Shown one piece after another: positions 13,660 to 20,207 of a stretch of 64,000 nucleotides of DNA (position 1 is its first letter; every line of letters begins with the position of its first letter). Below the pieces are notes generated by a model. That model had not been told where the DNA came from. It did not search any database and saw only the letters and a program-made list of their open reading frames with translations. The stretch spans positions 20,053 to 84,052 of the IMG/VR virus record IMGVR_UViG_3300009182_000042; one strand, written 5' to 3'. The stretch is from a virus. The translations under genes were made by a program, and so were the position numbers.

Positions 13660-15603
13660 ATGGCACGTTATAACAGCTCAGCAGTTGCTACACTAAGTTC
13701 GGCAACGGTTATCACAACTCCAAGTCAGGGGTTGTTGACAGAATTGGTCGGATCACCGCCTTATGCGGTGCAAATTCCCGATCCAACTATTTGGTATGGT
13801 CAAACACAGACCTACTATAATAACTCAGGAGGTGTTGTAACACTGAATACTCCTGCCGGTACATTTATTGGTCCAGGAAGTTCAGGCAGTTCAAGTTTAC
13901 AGATGCCCAATCAAAGTGTTGTGGTATTGGCATCGGACACTACCAAATATGTTATCTCATCATTCGACGGCGGCCCAACTTATGCTCAAACTGGTAACGG
14001 TAACAGCAGTAGTTATGCATTGTTGTTGAACGGTGACTTGGTGCAAAGTGCATCAACCATGAACTTGGTCAACACCAACACCACAACTGTCAACGCATTT
14101 GGCGCAGCCACAAGTATCAATATTGGTGCTCCATTCAGCACAACAACCTTTAACGGCAGTGTGTTCGTCAAAGGCGGCTTGGTGCAAGTCAACTCCAGCA
14201 GTGTGTTGGTAGAAGATAAAAATATTGAAATTGGTTATATCAACCCTATCAGCTACGGCGGCGGCACAATAACAACCATCGGTGGATCCATTTCCGGTTC
14301 AACCACATTTACCAGTATTAGTGGTACAAAGATTGCCGCAGGTTATACTGGCACAGTGTCTGGTGTGAGTCAATTCAGCACCAGCGGTGCTGGCACTGGT
14401 GCAACATTCAACATCACCATAAGCGGTGCTGGCACAACATACACTGGTGTTACCACAATTACGGTGGTCGCCGGCGGCGTGGGTTATGCACTGGGTGATA
14501 CTGTAACCATTGGTGGTAGTGTGTTTGGCGGCTCAAGTGCCAACGGTACCAACAACCTGACATTCACAATCAGCAACGTGAACGCCAGTCCTTGGTATGC
14601 CACAATTACAGGCATAACCAACACCACCAACTTGGTGGTAGGCAGCGCAATCAGTGCCACAAACGGTACTGGTAGTTTTGGTTCTGGTAATACTTCTCAG
14701 TTGGTTTTGAGCAATCTAAGTAGTACCAGCATACAGATTGTGGTCACAGGCGGCACAACGCCAGTAGCGGGTACAGTTACCAATATTACACCGGGTTCCA
14801 ACGATGCTTATGCCAATGACGGTGGTATCAAGCTGTATGGCTCAACAAACAAAACACTGATTTGGTCGCTGAATTCAGTTGGACCAACCAGTGGCAATAC
14901 TGGCCAACCATCATGGACCACCAGCGAAGGCTTGTCTTTCAGAAGTGCCACTGCCAGTAACTTTGGTATCCAAACATACCCTGGATCGGGCACTGGTTTT
15001 AACATATTAACCAACGGTGTAACCAACGGCACAGTCAACATTGCTACTGATGCAGTAACTAATAACCTGTTCACAGCTGGTACTGCAAACACCATTGGTG
15101 CATCTGGATCTGGCACAACTACTATTAGAAATACCACTTTAACATTCAGCGGTACCACTCTAAATGCAACTGCCATGACCAACTTCAACGGTAAAACTAC
15201 TGGTTGTTTCATGTATATTGGTAGCCTGGCTATTGGTACAACCAACAATCCAGGTGACGGTCAGATCAATGCAACCAGCAACATCATAGCGTATTACTCA
15301 GACGACAGACTAAAAACACGATTGGGCACCATTGAAAATGCTCTTGAAAAATTGGAAACACTAACTGGTTTCTACTATGAAGCCAACGAAACAGCACAGG
15401 CACTGGGTTACAAATCAGTGCGTGAAGTAGGTGTGTCAGCCCAAGATGTGCAAAAGATCCTACCAGAAATTATCAAGCCAGCACCTATTGACGCTAAGTA
15501 CATGACAATTCAATACGAAAAGTTAACACCATTAGTAATTGAAGCAGTTAAGGAACTGAGTGCCATGGTAAAAGAGTTGAAAGCCAAGATTGATAAGGAA
15601 TAA
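13660..15603 (+). CDS. Tail fibre with C-terminal S74 intramolecular chaperone domain
   Basis: A 647-aa protein. Residues 1-540 are low-complexity Thr/Gly/Asn-rich fibre sequence with repeats such as NTTTVNAFGAATSINIGA that are shared with the fibre near 57-58 kb. The C-terminus (about 546-647) is a Peptidase_S74/endosialidase chaperone domain: YYSDDRLK places the expected Ser-Asp cleavage pair at S547-D548, followed by LTGFYYE, GVSAQDVQ and the terminal amphipathic helix region QYEKLTPLVIEAVKEL. In this family the domain trimerises the fibre and then cleaves itself off. The stop codon overlaps the start of the Cys-rich gene (TAATG), implying translational coupling with the maturation cassette. 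Confidence 0.9.
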   Translation: MARYNSSAVATLSSATVITTPSQGLLTELVGSPPYAVQIPDPTIWYGQTQTYYNNSGGVVTLNTPAGTFIGPGSSGSSSLQMPNQSVVVLASDTTKYVISSFDGGPTYAQTGNGNSSSYALLLNGDLVQSASTMNLVNTNTTTVNAFGAATSINIGAPFSTTTFNGSVFVKGGLVQVNSSSVLVEDKNIEIGYINPISYGGGTITTIGGSISGSTTFTSISGTKIAAGYTGTVSGVSQFSTSGAGTGATFNITISGAGTTYTGVTTITVVAGGVGYALGDTVTIGGSVFGGSSANGTNNLTFTISNVNASPWYATITGITNTTNLVVGSAISATNGTGSFGSGNTSQLVLSNLSSTSIQIVVTGGTTPVAGTVTNITPGSNDAYANDGGIKLYGSTNKTLIWSLNSVGPTSGNTGQPSWTTSEGLSFRSATASNFGIQTYPGSGTGFNILTNGVTNGTVNIATDAVTNNLFTAGTANTIGASGSGTTTIRNTTLTFSGTTLNATAMTNFNGKTTGCFMYIGSLAIGTTNNPGDGQINATSNIIAYYSDDRLKTRLGTIENALEKLETLTGFYYEANETAQALGYKSVREVGVSAQDVQKILPEIIKPAPIDAKYMTIQYEKLTPLVIEAVKELSAMVKELKAKIDKE

Positions 15604-16124
15604 TGATGTCAGATCAAGACAATAATCAGCCAGTCGATCCAAAAGCAATCCAACCGCAGACCATTACTGGCGGTACTATTTCGTTCGCCAACATTACAGC
15701 TGAAATTGGGCAGGGTAACAGCAATGTGGGTTTGCAATTTTTGAACACCTATGTTGCACCCAGTCTAACTGGATATTTTCAAAATGCTCCCAACGGTGGC
15801 AACTGTGTGGGCTACAATAGCAACTGCGGGTCAACTCCACGTCCCACATTCCGTAGCACATATCCTGACATGAACGAATTTAGGAACTTAACTTATTTCA
15901 ATAGTCAAAACAAGGGACAATGTAACAACGGTAATTGTACCAACAACAACTGTAACTGCGGAAATATCGCCTGCTACAACTGTACTATCAATGGTCGTAT
16001 TAACTGTCAGAATTGTGACGGACAAGCATGGCTACAAGCTAATTGTAACTGCGCCTGTACAATGAATTGTAATTATACCAGCTACAGCGTGGCTTGTAAT
16101 TGCAACTGCAATTGTAATTGTTAA
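15603..16124 (+). CDS. Cys/Asn-rich virion-like protein, candidate radical SAM substrate
   Basis: A 173-aa protein in two halves. Residues 1-~65 contain TGGTISFANITAEIG, close to the (S/G)xISF..I..E(F/I)G motif common in phage tail and fibre proteins. Residues ~66-173 carry 19 Cys, 17 of them after residue ~105, mostly as NC/CN pairs and ending in a run of alternating Cys and Asn. The start overlaps the fibre stop (TAATG); a second Met follows directly. The radical SAM/SPASM gene begins 17 nt downstream. Precursors of Cys-derived thioether peptides (sactipeptides, ranthipeptides, SCIFF) pair a leader and a Cys-rich core with such an enzyme, so this is a plausible substrate. Metal binding or a plain disulfide-rich tip are alternatives. 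Function not established. Confidence 0.75.
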   Translation: MMSDQDNNQPVDPKAIQPQTITGGTISFANITAEIGQGNSNVGLQFLNTYVAPSLTGYFQNAPNGGNCVGYNSNCGSTPRPTFRSTYPDMNEFRNLTYFNSQNKGQCNNGNCTNNNCNCGNIACYNCTINGRINCQNCDGQAWLQANCNCACTMNCNYTSYSVACNCNCNCNC

Positions 16125-16141
16125 TACACTAAAGGTAACCC

Positions 16142-17599
16142 ATGAAATTTGAAATATTAGCATCACGGAACAAAGACGACGAGAAGATATTTTATTACGA
16201 TAACCAAACAAACACGCTGAGTGACGAAACTGGGTTTGTTTATGAGTATCCCCATGCTCTGGCCAGTGTTACACATACTCACGTACAAAAACCCTATGTT
16301 AGTTTTGATAAAGATCGTCCTCTTAAAAAATCTAAATCCGCACGTATAGTAAAAATTCAGATGGGGCTTAGTTGCAATTACAGTTGTGACTATTGCAGTC
16401 AGAAATTTGTAGAACGTCCAAAAGAAACCAACGCCAAAGATATTGAAAATTTTATGGAACTGTTCAACAACCTGGAGTTTGATGAACAACAGGGACTAAA
16501 GGTGGAGTTCTGGGGCGGCGAGCCGTTTGTGTATTGGAAAACCATGAAGCCCCTGGCTGAAGCGATTGCAGATCGTTTTGAAAGCTGGCAGAAAAAACCC
16601 ATGTTCAGTGTGATTACTAATGGTAGTCTATTGACTGAAGAAATCTGTGCATGGTTATACAGCATGAATTTCAGTATAGCTATCAGTCATGATGGCCCTG
16701 GTCAGCATGTGCGTGGTCCAGATCCATTTGATGATCCAAAAAAGCGTGAAATTGTGTTGGACCTTTATCAGATTCTTAGACCTTTAGATCGTATCAGTTT
16801 CAACAGCATGCTCAACAGCAAGAACACCAGTCGCAAAGAAATTTATGATTGGTTTGTGGAATTCACCAACGATCCAAGTGTTGTACTGGGCGAAGGTGCA
16901 TTTGTTGATGCATATGATGCAGATGGTTTAGAAAACTCAATGAAAACCAAAGCTGAACATTTTGCTTTTAGACAACGTGCTTTCGGAGAAATTTATGGCT
17001 CCGCTGGTGATATTGGATTCACCGGCATCCTACAAAAAGTAGATAATTTTACTGAAGCTGTGCTTACACATAAAAATGCAGAATTTTTAGGGCAGAAATG
17101 CGGTATGGACGACGAGGGTGTTATAGCATTTGACCTAAAAGGCAATGTTATTACCTGTCAAAACGTCAGTGCATTGGAGATTGGCAAAAACGGTGAATCG
17201 CATCTGGGTGGAAACCTTGCAGATCTAGACAGTGTGGAAATCAAAACTGCCACTCACTGGAGCAATCGTAAAGAATGTAGCGGTTGCCCAGTGCTACATA
17301 TTTGTCAAGGGGCTTGTATGTTCCTAGACGGTGAATATTGGACTGCCAGTTGCAACAATGCATATAGTGATGCTATTCCCCTGTTTGCCACCAGCATTAT
17401 GAAAATAACCAACGGGTATATTCCTATGACTGTAAAAAGTGAAGAATTGCCCTTAGAAAGACAGGATATCTTTGGGACTATGATGAAACACCAAGAATGG
17501 ACACCAAAAAAGATAATCCCCATCAAAGTTGTAAGCGAAAAAGTAGCTGTTATTGACAATGTCGAAGTCTACGGACAAAGCACTGTGATAAATAGTTAA
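16142..17599 (+). CDS. Radical SAM/SPASM peptide-maturase-like enzyme
   Basis: A 485-aa protein. The radical SAM CxxxCxxC motif is C78-C82-C85 (GLSCNYSCDYCSQ), binding the 4Fe-4S cluster that cleaves S-adenosylmethionine. The GGEP-type motif (EFWGGEPF) and ITNGS and SHDGP motifs follow in normal order. The C-terminal third has a SPASM/twitch-type Cys set: C320, C339, then a CSGCP...C...C cluster and a final C near NNAY, suited to bind auxiliary clusters. Residues 1-70 form an extra N-terminal region. SPASM enzymes modify peptides or proteins (anSME, sactisynthases, PqqE); the preceding Cys-rich gene is the obvious candidate partner. Ribosome site aaggtaac. A late-type promoter box for the next gene lies inside its 3' end. 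Confidence 0.88.
   Translation: MKFEILASRNKDDEKIFYYDNQTNTLSDETGFVYEYPHALASVTHTHVQKPYVSFDKDRPLKKSKSARIVKIQMGLSCNYSCDYCSQKFVERPKETNAKDIENFMELFNNLEFDEQQGLKVEFWGGEPFVYWKTMKPLAEAIADRFESWQKKPMFSVITNGSLLTEEICAWLYSMNFSIAISHDGPGQHVRGPDPFDDPKKREIVLDLYQILRPLDRISFNSMLNSKNTSRKEIYDWFVEFTNDPSVVLGEGAFVDAYDADGLENSMKTKAEHFAFRQRAFGEIYGSAGDIGFTGILQKVDNFTEAVLTHKNAEFLGQKCGMDDEGVIAFDLKGNVITCQNVSALEIGKNGESHLGGNLADLDSVEIKTATHWSNRKECSGCPVLHICQGACMFLDGEYWTASCNNAYSDAIPLFATSIMKITNGYIPMTVKSEELPLERQDIFGTMMKHQEWTPKKIIPIKVVSEKVAVIDNVEVYGQSTVINS
17587..17594 (+). promoter_or_regulatory. T4-late-type promoter box GATAAATA inside the 3' end of the radical SAM gene
   Basis: GATAAATA lies in the last codons of the radical SAM gene and ends 27 nt before the ATG of the Ig-domain protein, so that gene may be transcribed independently as a late gene. 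The match is to the T4 late consensus; activity is inferred. Confidence 0.4.
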
Positions 17600-17621: not shown

Positions 17622-18602
17622 ATGAATTTGTATATTTCCACACATTGTCGTAGATATTATGCTGTTGAAGCAGTTGTTACCTCTGAAGGGATCGAATATA
17701 AAACTTATCCAGCATATCTAATATCAGAACTGAAAAAATACTGGGCCTCCTTGGCAAACAGTGGTATTCCGGGTACTTTGATTTTTGATGATCAACATCC
17801 TATGATTACCCCTGATATGAAACCACTGTGGACTACAGATACTGTTGCTGTGTATGATGTGCAAGTTGCAAACAACACCTATACCAGCGGAGTTATAGAT
17901 TTTCAATTGGATATAAAAAATAATAATGATTATAGCGATCATGCACAATACGATATATATTCTCCAGGGTGCCTGGCTGTAACAACGGTATTTGACGAAC
18001 ATAGAGACAAACATAGCAATGATATTATGAGCTATAGCGCAATGACCAAAGCACAGACAGTATCCAACGGTATATCTAGAGGCTACATGATTCCGATACA
18101 TAACTCTGTGGCACAAACATCTCATTCAAGAATGAAGCCGCATGTGCATCAGCGTTTGACAGGCAATGCACCTATGATCAGCATCATGGTTCCACTAGCA
18201 GACATGGACCCAACAGATTGGGAGATTGTGTTCACTGTGGCAGAAGAAGGACTGCTACGTGTGAACGGCAATACTGTTGAACCAATTCCAGTGGGATACC
18301 TATTGAATCATATGCCTAAAGTATGGTTTAAGAAAAACACTGCCACCGTAAACACTAATAATTTTGTTGATTTAGAATTTTATTTAGGCACTGCTAGCGG
18401 AAGCCCGATTACTGGCCACGATGCAACAGTGTATATCAAAACCACTGGCGGCCAACTCAATAAAACTCAAGTGCGAACAGTTAACGGAGAAGGTAAAGTG
18501 AAACTGATTTCAAATCATTTGGAATCAGGCGATGTTATCAAAGTAAGTGTTGGCTTTCAATACTATTCCGGCACAGATGATTGTATTGTTACAGTCAAAT
18601 AA
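17622..18602 (+). CDS. Unknown protein with C-terminal Ig-like (bacterial Ig type) domain
   Basis: A 326-aa protein with ribosome site caaggagcc. Residues 1-~235 match no family I recognise; they contain a Met/His-rich stretch (HSRMKPHVHQR) and FTVAEEGLLRVNG. Residues ~240-326 look like an invasin/BIG-type Ig sandwich: LEFYLGTASGSPITGHDATV..., KVKLISNHLESGDVIKVSV and a YYSGTDDCIVTVK ending. The gene sits between the radical SAM enzyme and the halogenase-like enzyme and may be a partner or a second substrate of the cassette, or simply a virion protein. It has no signal peptide. Confidence 0.65.
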   Translation: MNLYISTHCRRYYAVEAVVTSEGIEYKTYPAYLISELKKYWASLANSGIPGTLIFDDQHPMITPDMKPLWTTDTVAVYDVQVANNTYTSGVIDFQLDIKNNNDYSDHAQYDIYSPGCLAVTTVFDEHRDKHSNDIMSYSAMTKAQTVSNGISRGYMIPIHNSVAQTSHSRMKPHVHQRLTGNAPMISIMVPLADMDPTDWEIVFTVAEEGLLRVNGNTVEPIPVGYLLNHMPKVWFKKNTATVNTNNFVDLEFYLGTASGSPITGHDATVYIKTTGGQLNKTQVRTVNGEGKVKLISNHLESGDVIKVSVGFQYYSGTDDCIVTVK

Positions 18603-18608
18603 CATGGC

Positions 18609-19775
18609 ATGAAACTGGCCATAATAGGCGATGGCAAAGCCAGTGCCATAGCAATACTAACAGTTCTAGATCTAGTAAAAAATAAAAATTACACAGATCT
18701 AGAACTTTTTATTTTGCACGATACTATACGTGCCAACGACCAGTTGGCAACCGCTGCCAATCCTGTGTTAAATCGATTGCTCAAAAATGTGATTAACTTT
18801 AATGATCACGCGGACATTAAAAAAATACAAGGCAGCATGAGACTAGGAATCAGCCACACGTGGCACGATGACTCGTTGGCCAAATGCTGGATACAATCTC
18901 CAAGTCCGGGTCTACATTTTAATGGTAATATTTTCTTTGATTTTGTAGTAGAGTCAGTATGTAATCTTTATGCGAATGTCACTTATCAAACTGGGAAAAT
19001 GCGAAAATTAAATCAGTCTGATCAGTATGCCACGGTGTCACTGGACGAAACTGAATTGCTATTTGATTATGTAATAGACACAACCGGATTAGATCAGACC
19101 AATTATACAGTACCGGACTTTGCTCCAGTAGACAAAATAATAACAGCCGAAACTAAAAATTCCTATAATGAATCGCATACATCGATTACATTCCATGACA
19201 ATGGCTACAGTTTAGGAATACCACTAGTAGGCAAGAAAGTTGTATATTATTTTTATAACAGTAAAATTATCAATGTAGATCAAGCAGTGGACAATTTTAA
19301 TCAAATTGCCAGTTTAAATACCGATCCTCAATTGAAAGATTTCAATCCCAGATATAAAAAATACAGTATAAATGATAGAATCATATATGCAGGACCCGGT
19401 TTGTTCTATATGGAGCCAATACAGGCATTGCCCTTTCACTTTTATCAAGATACAATAAAAATAATATTGTCTAATCTCATGTTAGAAAATTATAACAAAT
19501 CGTTAGACATAGAAGCTAATCAAGGTTATATTACCAACATGGAATTAAAACAAGACTTGATTGCACTTACCTATCATAATAAAAATAATTATTCATCAGA
19601 ATTTTGGAAACAAGCTAGAGATAACAGTAAAAAATACTTGTCGCAGTCAGAGCATTTTAAAAAATTTGTAGATAATTATAAAAATACAGGTAATTTAGAA
19701 TATGATTTGCATGACAACAAAGTGGCCGTGAAATATATCACAGGCTTGGGCATAGATCTAGATAAGATCTACTAA
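18609..19775 (+). CDS. Flavin-dependent tryptophan-halogenase-like protein (divergent)
   Basis: A 388-aa protein, shorter than typical tryptophan halogenases (about 500-540 aa). It starts with a Rossmann strand-loop (KLAIIGDGKASAIA) instead of GGGTAGW. It then shows family-like landmarks in order: RLGISHTWHDD, GLHFNGNIFFDFV, DYVIDTTGLDQ, GYSLGIP in the position of the usual WxWxIP, and IIYAGPGLFYMEPIQALPFHFY, which parallels the GFLEPLESTS motif. The catalytic Lys in its usual G(E/K)..PT context is not evident, so halogenation cannot be asserted; a monooxygenase or other flavin-dependent activity is possible. Cyanophage halogenase VirX1 is a known viral precedent. It is 6 nt after the Ig-domain gene, and its 3' end overlaps the convergent Nudix gene by 18 nt. 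Confidence 0.55.
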   Translation: MKLAIIGDGKASAIAILTVLDLVKNKNYTDLELFILHDTIRANDQLATAANPVLNRLLKNVINFNDHADIKKIQGSMRLGISHTWHDDSLAKCWIQSPSPGLHFNGNIFFDFVVESVCNLYANVTYQTGKMRKLNQSDQYATVSLDETELLFDYVIDTTGLDQTNYTVPDFAPVDKIITAETKNSYNESHTSITFHDNGYSLGIPLVGKKVVYYFYNSKIINVDQAVDNFNQIASLNTDPQLKDFNPRYKKYSINDRIIYAGPGLFYMEPIQALPFHFYQDTIKIILSNLMLENYNKSLDIEANQGYITNMELKQDLIALTYHNKNNYSSEFWKQARDNSKKYLSQSEHFKKFVDNYKNTGNLEYDLHDNKVAVKYITGLGIDLDKIY

Positions 19776-20207
19776 ATCAAATACAGTTTGCAATTTGGTA
19801 CGTATAGTTTTACTGCTAAAACTGTTTCGTAACCCTTGATGTAGGGGTTTAGGTGCGCGGTCGATCACGGTCCACGCCCATCCCAGGTGTTCATCGCTCA
19901 ATATGGGAACAAATTCCGTTTCAACCACGCACAGATATGTGTGAAAATTAAACACACGGTCGTTGGATACAAATGTTTCTAACGGAATAGTTTTAAGTAG
20001 TGATGGTATACTGCCAATTTCTTCTGTAATTTCACGTTGAAGTCCTTGCCATGGAGTTTCGCCATGCACATTGGTACCACCCACTAAACCCCACGTGCCT
20101 TCATGTTTGCCTGATTTCTTTTGCAATAGCAAAAATCTCTTGGTGGCCTTGGCATAGAACAGCGCACCACTACAAACTATTTGGTCTTTTATAATACGAT
20201 TTTCCAT
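19758..20207 (-). CDS. Nudix hydrolase
   Basis: A 149-aa protein with a complete Nudix box GX5EX7REUXEEXGU: G44, E50, R58, E59, E62, E63, G65, I67 (GTNVHGE... REITEEIGSI). The family hydrolyses nucleoside diphosphates linked to another moiety, using Mg2+ bound by the box glutamates. WGLVGG upstream of the box is typical. Substrate unknown; nucleotide-sugar, NAD-like or oxidised nucleotides are options. It is the last gene of the minus-strand gp14-gp15 unit and its start overlaps the end of gp15 by 19 nt. It is convergent with, and overlaps, the halogenase-like gene. Confidence 0.92.
   Translation of the reverse strand: MENRIIKDQIVCSGALFYAKATKRFLLLQKKSGKHEGTWGLVGGTNVHGETPWQGLQREITEEIGSIPSLLKTIPLETFVSNDRVFNFHTYLCVVETEFVPILSDEHLGWAWTVIDRAPKPLHQGLRNSFSSKTIRTKLQTVFDLVDLI

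Follow-up and report, generated by a model that had tools for sequence, protein, structure and literature searches.

A short halogenase-fold protein encoded beside phage tail-fibre genes, probably a repurposed or catalytically dead relative of flavin-dependent halogenases

The locus and the halogenase-fold gene

The stretch of DNA analysed here (the window, 64,000 nucleotides) comes from a virus record of 84,052 bases which, by gene content, belongs to a T4-like phage. The gene under study is the last of four co-oriented genes, encoding a Cys-rich protein, a radical SAM/SPASM enzyme, an Ig-type protein and a protein with the fold of flavin-dependent halogenases (FDHs). This four-gene run sits between an S74 tail-fibre gene and an oppositely oriented Nudix gene, the latter being conserved in related phages both with and without the halogenase-fold gene:

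13660..15603, + strand: tail fibre carrying an S74 chaperone domain; bounds the variable site on the left
15603..16124, + strand: Cys-rich protein, 173 aa, with a conserved NCDxQxWLQxNCNC core
16142..17599, + strand: radical SAM/SPASM enzyme, 485 aa; best scores for the PapB and QhpD types, all under cut-off
17622..18602, + strand: Ig-type protein, 326 aa; variable N-terminal part, C-terminal intimin-type Ig-like domain
18609..19775, + strand: short FDH-fold protein, 388 aa (PF04820; from sequence profiles and predicted fold)
19758..20207, - strand: Nudix hydrolase, 149 aa; bounds the variable site on the right

The open reading frame at exactly 18609-19775 (+) begins with ATG, and its translation contains all the segments quoted in an earlier reading of this DNA (hereafter the sequence-only reading), which had taken the product for a halogenase-like flavoprotein, shorter than its relatives (388 aa against about 490-550 aa). 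This assignment is borne out by sequence profiles: the protein scores 55.3 bits (E = 6.9e-15) against PF04820, whose curated cut-off is 21 bits, and 111 bits (E = 1e-31) against PHROG 2928 ('tryptophan halogenase'), and its matches in the PDB are LooH, PrnA and RebH (E 6e-5 to 7e-4). By sequence profile, it is thus a member of the FDH superfamily.

A search with the single sequence of the window protein returned only one near-identical contig, and its clade was then reached through an alignment. Because an independent IMG/VR contig (L001) carries the same ORF at 99% identity (PF04820 score of this copy, 52.7 bits), the ORF is not an assembly artefact; together with the E-values, this contig also rules out chance as its source. 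The two copies differ by five synonymous and four non-synonymous codons, with the frame open in both contigs, which may hint faintly at purifying selection on the window gene.

An AlphaFold2 (AF2) model of the window protein reached a pLDDT of 87.5 and a pTM of 0.88, although it should be noted that its input, an alignment of 35 relatives, can impose the fold of the relatives on the window protein. The best Foldseek match of the model was Xcc4156 (TM 0.83) and the best VIA match was AbeH (Z 39.9), with Z of 31-36 over about 370 residues for PrnA, RebH, Thal, VirX1 and MibH. By all three methods, the FDH fold is predicted across the whole chain. The lack of an FAD-binding fold had been named as a result that would speak against the sequence-only reading; because the top PDB structural matches are all flavin-dependent halogenases, no objection arises on this ground.

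Catalytic residues, motifs and phylogeny

In flavin-dependent halogenases, Lys79 and Glu346 (PrnA numbering) direct hypohalous acid chemistry onto the substrate. Both were placed on the phage proteins by profile alignment, in which PrnA K79 aligns with the Lys of 'DATxKxGVKF', and E346 with the second Glu of 'EPxEAL', of the cyanophage homologues. The corresponding features of the window gene are the following:

18627..18644, + strand: residues 7-12, GDGKAS, remnant of GxGxxG, with Ser for the third Gly here and in most of the clade
18738..18764, + strand: residues 44-52, DQLATAANP, in place of the xxxGES of the other family members (flavin loop, PrnA G48/E49)
18840..18842, + strand: Arg78, at the position of catalytic Lys79 of PrnA/Thal (alignment)
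19206..19223, + strand: residues 200-205, YSLGIP, at the position of WxWxIP (alignment)
19422..19424, + strand: Gln272, at the position of catalytic Glu346 of PrnA (alignment)

By this alignment, the window protein has neither the catalytic Lys, replaced by Arg78, nor the catalytic Glu, replaced by Gln272. The flavin motifs GxGxxG and GxGE[AS]T are not kept (GDGKAS and LATAAN), nor are WxWxIP and Fx.Px.Sx.G (YSLGIP and YMEPIQALP), two motifs as defined in PMC8407142, variants of which are known in some active enzymes. Also replaced are W200 and F202, which do not vary among the other family members compared. The sequence-only reading had rightly pointed out the altered GxGxxG and WxWxIP regions (GDGKAS and GYSLGIP), but had overlooked the larger changes, namely the replacement of both catalytic residues and the loss of the GxGES loop.

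None of the variants obtained by saturation mutagenesis of Lys79 in Thal was active for halogenation (PMC7948982), and a Glu-to-Gln mutant of a halogenase is reported to be inactive (PMC8407142). Because these mutants of other halogenases are inactive, the window clade should be incapable of halogenation. The halogenase activity proposed by the sequence-only reading is therefore contradicted by Arg78 and Gln272, which take the place of both halogenation residues, and by the loss of most of the flavin and tunnel signature.

The residues were counted in 63 unique short phage proteins, 20 in the window clade and 43 outside it; in a FastTree phylogeny of non-redundant sequences, the window clade has a support of 1.0 and a branch of 0.64. 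The catalytic Glu is kept in none of the 20 clade proteins, its place being taken by Q, H, G, M or N; in 17 of them, the catalytic Lys is replaced by Arg. Outside the clade, Lys is kept in 43/43 and Glu in 38/43 of the short phage proteins, and the full-length phage halogenases in the same loci keep Lys in 18/18 and Glu in 17/18 cases. The replacements are also found in clade members located outside the radical SAM cassette.

The window protein has the longest branch (1.92 versus 0.93-1.39, FastTree), and has changed 27 of the 70 clade-conserved positions (39%, compared with 0-17% in other members). Its losses include Gly47, Trp200, Phe202, Gly213, Asn263 and Phe267, invariant in all 72 other sequences, and likewise Glu48 of GxGES. 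Its identity to the other cassette homologues is 29-33%, compared with 49-65% among those homologues across clusters; when the same phages are compared with the window, the radical SAM proteins are 66-75% and the Nudix proteins 82-85% identical, an ordinary divergence.

Compared with PrnA, RebH, Thal and PyrH (PF04820), the window protein shares the fold over all 388 residues, the order of the motifs and the conserved DxxG, IP and EP positions; however, it is only 12-17% identical, is 100-150 residues shorter, and is devoid of the catalytic Lys and Glu, GxGES and WxWxIP. VirX1 from cyanophage Syn10 (6qgm) is also phage-borne and has the same fold (Z 30.9), but it is a protein of 531 aa that keeps the catalytic Lys79 and is an active viral halogenase (PMC8407142), whereas the window protein falls in a different clade, of short proteins, that lacks Lys79. 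The nearest annotated relatives are the short 'tryptophan halogenases' of the T4-like cyanophages S-SSM5, S-SSM7, S-RIM4 and S-MS29, which have a similar length (367-388 aa) and the same layout. These are 22-26% identical to the window protein and, unlike it, keep Lys, GxGES/GxGEG, GWMFG/GWVFG and, in most cases, Glu; a search of three of these cyanophage genomes found no radical SAM cassette.

Two further groups of short homologues were observed. In L061, L063 and L065, short Glu-less halogenase-fold proteins share small islands with a full-length halogenase having both Lys and Glu, and it is conceivable that they are its non-catalytic partners. Short homologues also occur in uncultured bacteria (L129-L138; Vampirovibrionales, Eremiobacterota and myxobacteria), where Lys is kept, the catalytic Glu is Val or Ile, and a 'FEPL[VI]ANSI' motif is conserved.

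The radical SAM gene and the tail-fibre-proximal site

Relatives of the radical SAM gene were collected from 41 IMG/VR loci. Because the Cys-rich gene adjoins the radical SAM gene in all of those loci with flanking sequence, the two form the stable unit. The pair (15603-17599 in the window; L002-L042) recurs in about 38 phage contigs, its radical SAM/SPASM enzymes having seven invariant SPASM Cys residues, and it adjoins tail fibres in several phages; the Cys-rich protein looks like a phage protein modified by the radical SAM enzyme. In another phage group (L014, L015, L017 and L019-L040), the Cys-rich domain is encoded downstream of the radical SAM gene, as part of a fusion protein that also has a conserved domain of ~160 aa; this domain looks helical and gave no Pfam match in the one protein searched. 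In the Achromobacter phage JWF (L044, 5679-9200), a radical SAM relative with 41% identity is encoded downstream of a tail protein that gave shufflon and Hint-type matches, and has no obvious Cys-rich partner. Searches of annotated phage proteins with the Ig and Cys-rich proteins gave no matches.

The Ig gene was found in the window lineage only (14 loci), and the presence of the halogenase-fold gene is patchy even there. It lies between the Ig and Nudix genes in five of the six sequence clusters of the lineage, and is absent from the sixth, the closest relatives L002 and L003, in which the Ig gene is directly followed by the Nudix gene even though the radical SAM proteins are 93% and 91% identical to that of the window. 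Among other records, 0/29 of those carrying the radical SAM gene gave a halogenase homologue, and 0/31 of those carrying halogenase homologues gave the radical SAM gene; positive controls were detected in both searches, but many records are fragments, and gene presence may be undercounted.

Linkage of the halogenase-fold gene to the radical SAM gene is therefore weak. The sequence-only reading had paired the two enzymes, had proposed co-occurrence as a check, and had considered that lack of linkage to the cassette elsewhere would count against it. Linkage holds inside one phage lineage and fails outside it, so that the partnership finds little support in these counts and in the absence of the gene from L002/L003. 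A search of titles and abstracts, with a coverage outside which most subscription journals fall, retrieved no link between a phage radical SAM/SPASM enzyme, a halogenase and a tail fibre.

Short halogenase genes elsewhere often share an island with full-length halogenases, NodU-type carbamoyltransferases and arrays of 2OG-Fe(II) oxygenases, and most islands examined have genes for tail fibres or virion structure next to them. In L061/L062, L069 and L110/L112, such islands are flanked by the same 149-aa Nudix gene as in the window; a search of the L061, L069 and L110 records for the radical SAM gene found none. Given this shared border in islands without a radical SAM gene, the window gene appears to belong to an exchangeable tailoring site by the tail fibre, and not to the radical SAM system as such.

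Some other features of these islands were recorded. Several halogenase-family genes, up to five, occur per phage locus in L110/L112, L097/L098, L084 and L088; some of these islands also hold 2OG oxygenases and carbamoyltransferases, and tail-fibre genes lie near the loci in L097, L084 and L088. The PHROG families 'DNA endonuclease V' and 'ferrochelatase' match proteins at L122 4001-4483, L122 6736-7401 and L097 9166-9762, which stand within runs of 2OG-Fe(II) oxygenase genes and partly match that family; the two labels look wrong. Finally, PHROG 7084 (about 245 aa) recurs near halogenase genes (L060 10322-11059, L069 9203-9961 and L097 12070-12804).

Possible function of the protein

The window protein is probably a repurposed or catalytically dead halogenase relative located by tail-fibre genes, rather than a working halogenase. 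The reading we favour, to which we give a probability of roughly one half, is that of a short phage FDH-fold protein which no longer halogenates and is kept by selection as a folded, binding pseudoenzyme. The ancestor would have been a tailoring flavoenzyme of the kind that T4-like phages keep beside their tail-fibre genes. Judging from the published mutants, halogenation would have been lost at the level of the clade, when the equivalents of Lys79 and Glu346 were replaced; flavin chemistry would then have been lost in the window lineage along with the flavin loop and the tunnel motif, and it is because of this additional loss that a pseudoenzyme seems most likely. What is left may be a folded protein binding a substrate or a partner, which selection would keep in its own lineage and which would be dispensable in the sister phages. 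Such a protein might, for instance, hold the Ig-type adhesin or the Cys-rich protein during maturation. A role without chemistry of its own would have a parallel in QhpG, which strongly promotes the crosslinking of QhpC by the radical SAM enzyme QhpD (PMC7876137). On the other hand, an enzyme that evolves quickly could bind flavin through some other loop.

A possible, though clearly less favoured, explanation is that the protein works as a flavin monooxygenase and not as a halogenase, and hydroxylates an aromatic side chain in the Cys-rich, Ig or fibre protein, in the way that QhpG dihydroxylates a Trp of QhpC after crosslinking by QhpD (PMC7876137). QhpG, LodB and GoxB, the flavoproteins of tryptophylquinone enzyme maturation, have an FDH-like fold, and the gene order recalls the qhp operon, in which the flavoprotein gene lies beside those for a radical SAM enzyme (the window enzyme has a QhpD-type score of 8e-19) and a small Cys-rich protein (PMC7876137). 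Within this lineage, the layout is found in the window and in four further sequence clusters; it was not seen in other lineages. In addition, the WxW gate, thought to block monooxygenation, is altered in the window clade, and Lys79 variants of Thal still form the hydroperoxyflavin; because even Lys79Thr makes the C4a-hydroperoxyflavin (PMC7948982), oxygenase chemistry is possible for the clade. Weak LodB/GoxB-type HMM matches to the clade point the same way. However, the scores for the QhpG, LodB and GoxB families are 12-23 bits (at most 23.4 bits among clade relatives) against cut-offs of 240-400. The window protein itself gave no match to the QhpG and LodB models and 13.3 bits for GoxB, far from the NCBIfam equivalog cut-off of 400. 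On these family scores, membership of the QhpG family is rejected; the absence of 7CTQ among the 50 VIA matches listed says nothing in this respect. The window cassette contains no dehydrogenase genes, and no signs of a modified Trp like those of the QhpG/LodB/GoxB systems were found for it. Moreover, the Trp of the Cys-rich core (NCDxQxWLQ) is kept in nearly all phages without the flavoprotein, including L002/L003, and since it does not track the halogenase-fold gene, it is unlikely to be the target. The window copy has also lost GxGES, together with Gly, Trp, Phe and Asn residues that do not vary in any of the relatives compared, and the oxygenase reading is more plausible for the clade than for the window copy.

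It is rather improbable that the window gene is on its way to loss, with no remaining function. The clean deletion in the sister phages L002/L003, the longest branch with many conserved sites gone, and the lack of a Shine-Dalgarno sequence, unlike the homologues of L004, L007 and L010 (three of the four other cassette homologues), would agree with decay; yet all 388 codons are open despite a branch of ~1.7 substitutions per site, the fold is predicted to be intact (AF2), and about half of the other genes of the window also lack a Shine-Dalgarno sequence. Very improbable is a phage counterpart of QhpD/QhpG, in which the radical SAM enzyme would crosslink the Cys-rich, tail-associated protein and the halogenase-fold flavoprotein, deprived of its halogenating residues, would oxidise or chaperone it, to give a virion adhesin with thioether crosslinks or a protein-derived quinone. 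Equally hard to credit is a working halogenase acting on a peptide, a protein or a host metabolite, as the sequence-only reading had it: the PF04820/PHROG match, the FDH fold, the active viral VirX1 and the lanthipeptide halogenase MibH, which shares the fold, speak for it, but both residues whose replacement abolishes halogenation in the enzymes tested are replaced, GxGES, WxWxIP and Fx.Px.Sx.G are lost, and no flavin reductase was found in the 84-kb record (a fragment, and the host could supply one).

In aquatic T4-like phages, genes named 'tryptophan halogenase' occur frequently and are mostly described as auxiliary metabolic genes. Mapping of their catalytic residues divides them into plausible halogenators and the window clade, which on published mutant data should be unable to halogenate. 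Because both kinds sit in a tail-fibre-proximal hotspot with oxygenases and carbamoyltransferases, they point to modification of the adsorption apparatus, and not to host metabolism. If the window protein is still functional, it would represent a natural case of a halogenase fold reused without its chemistry.
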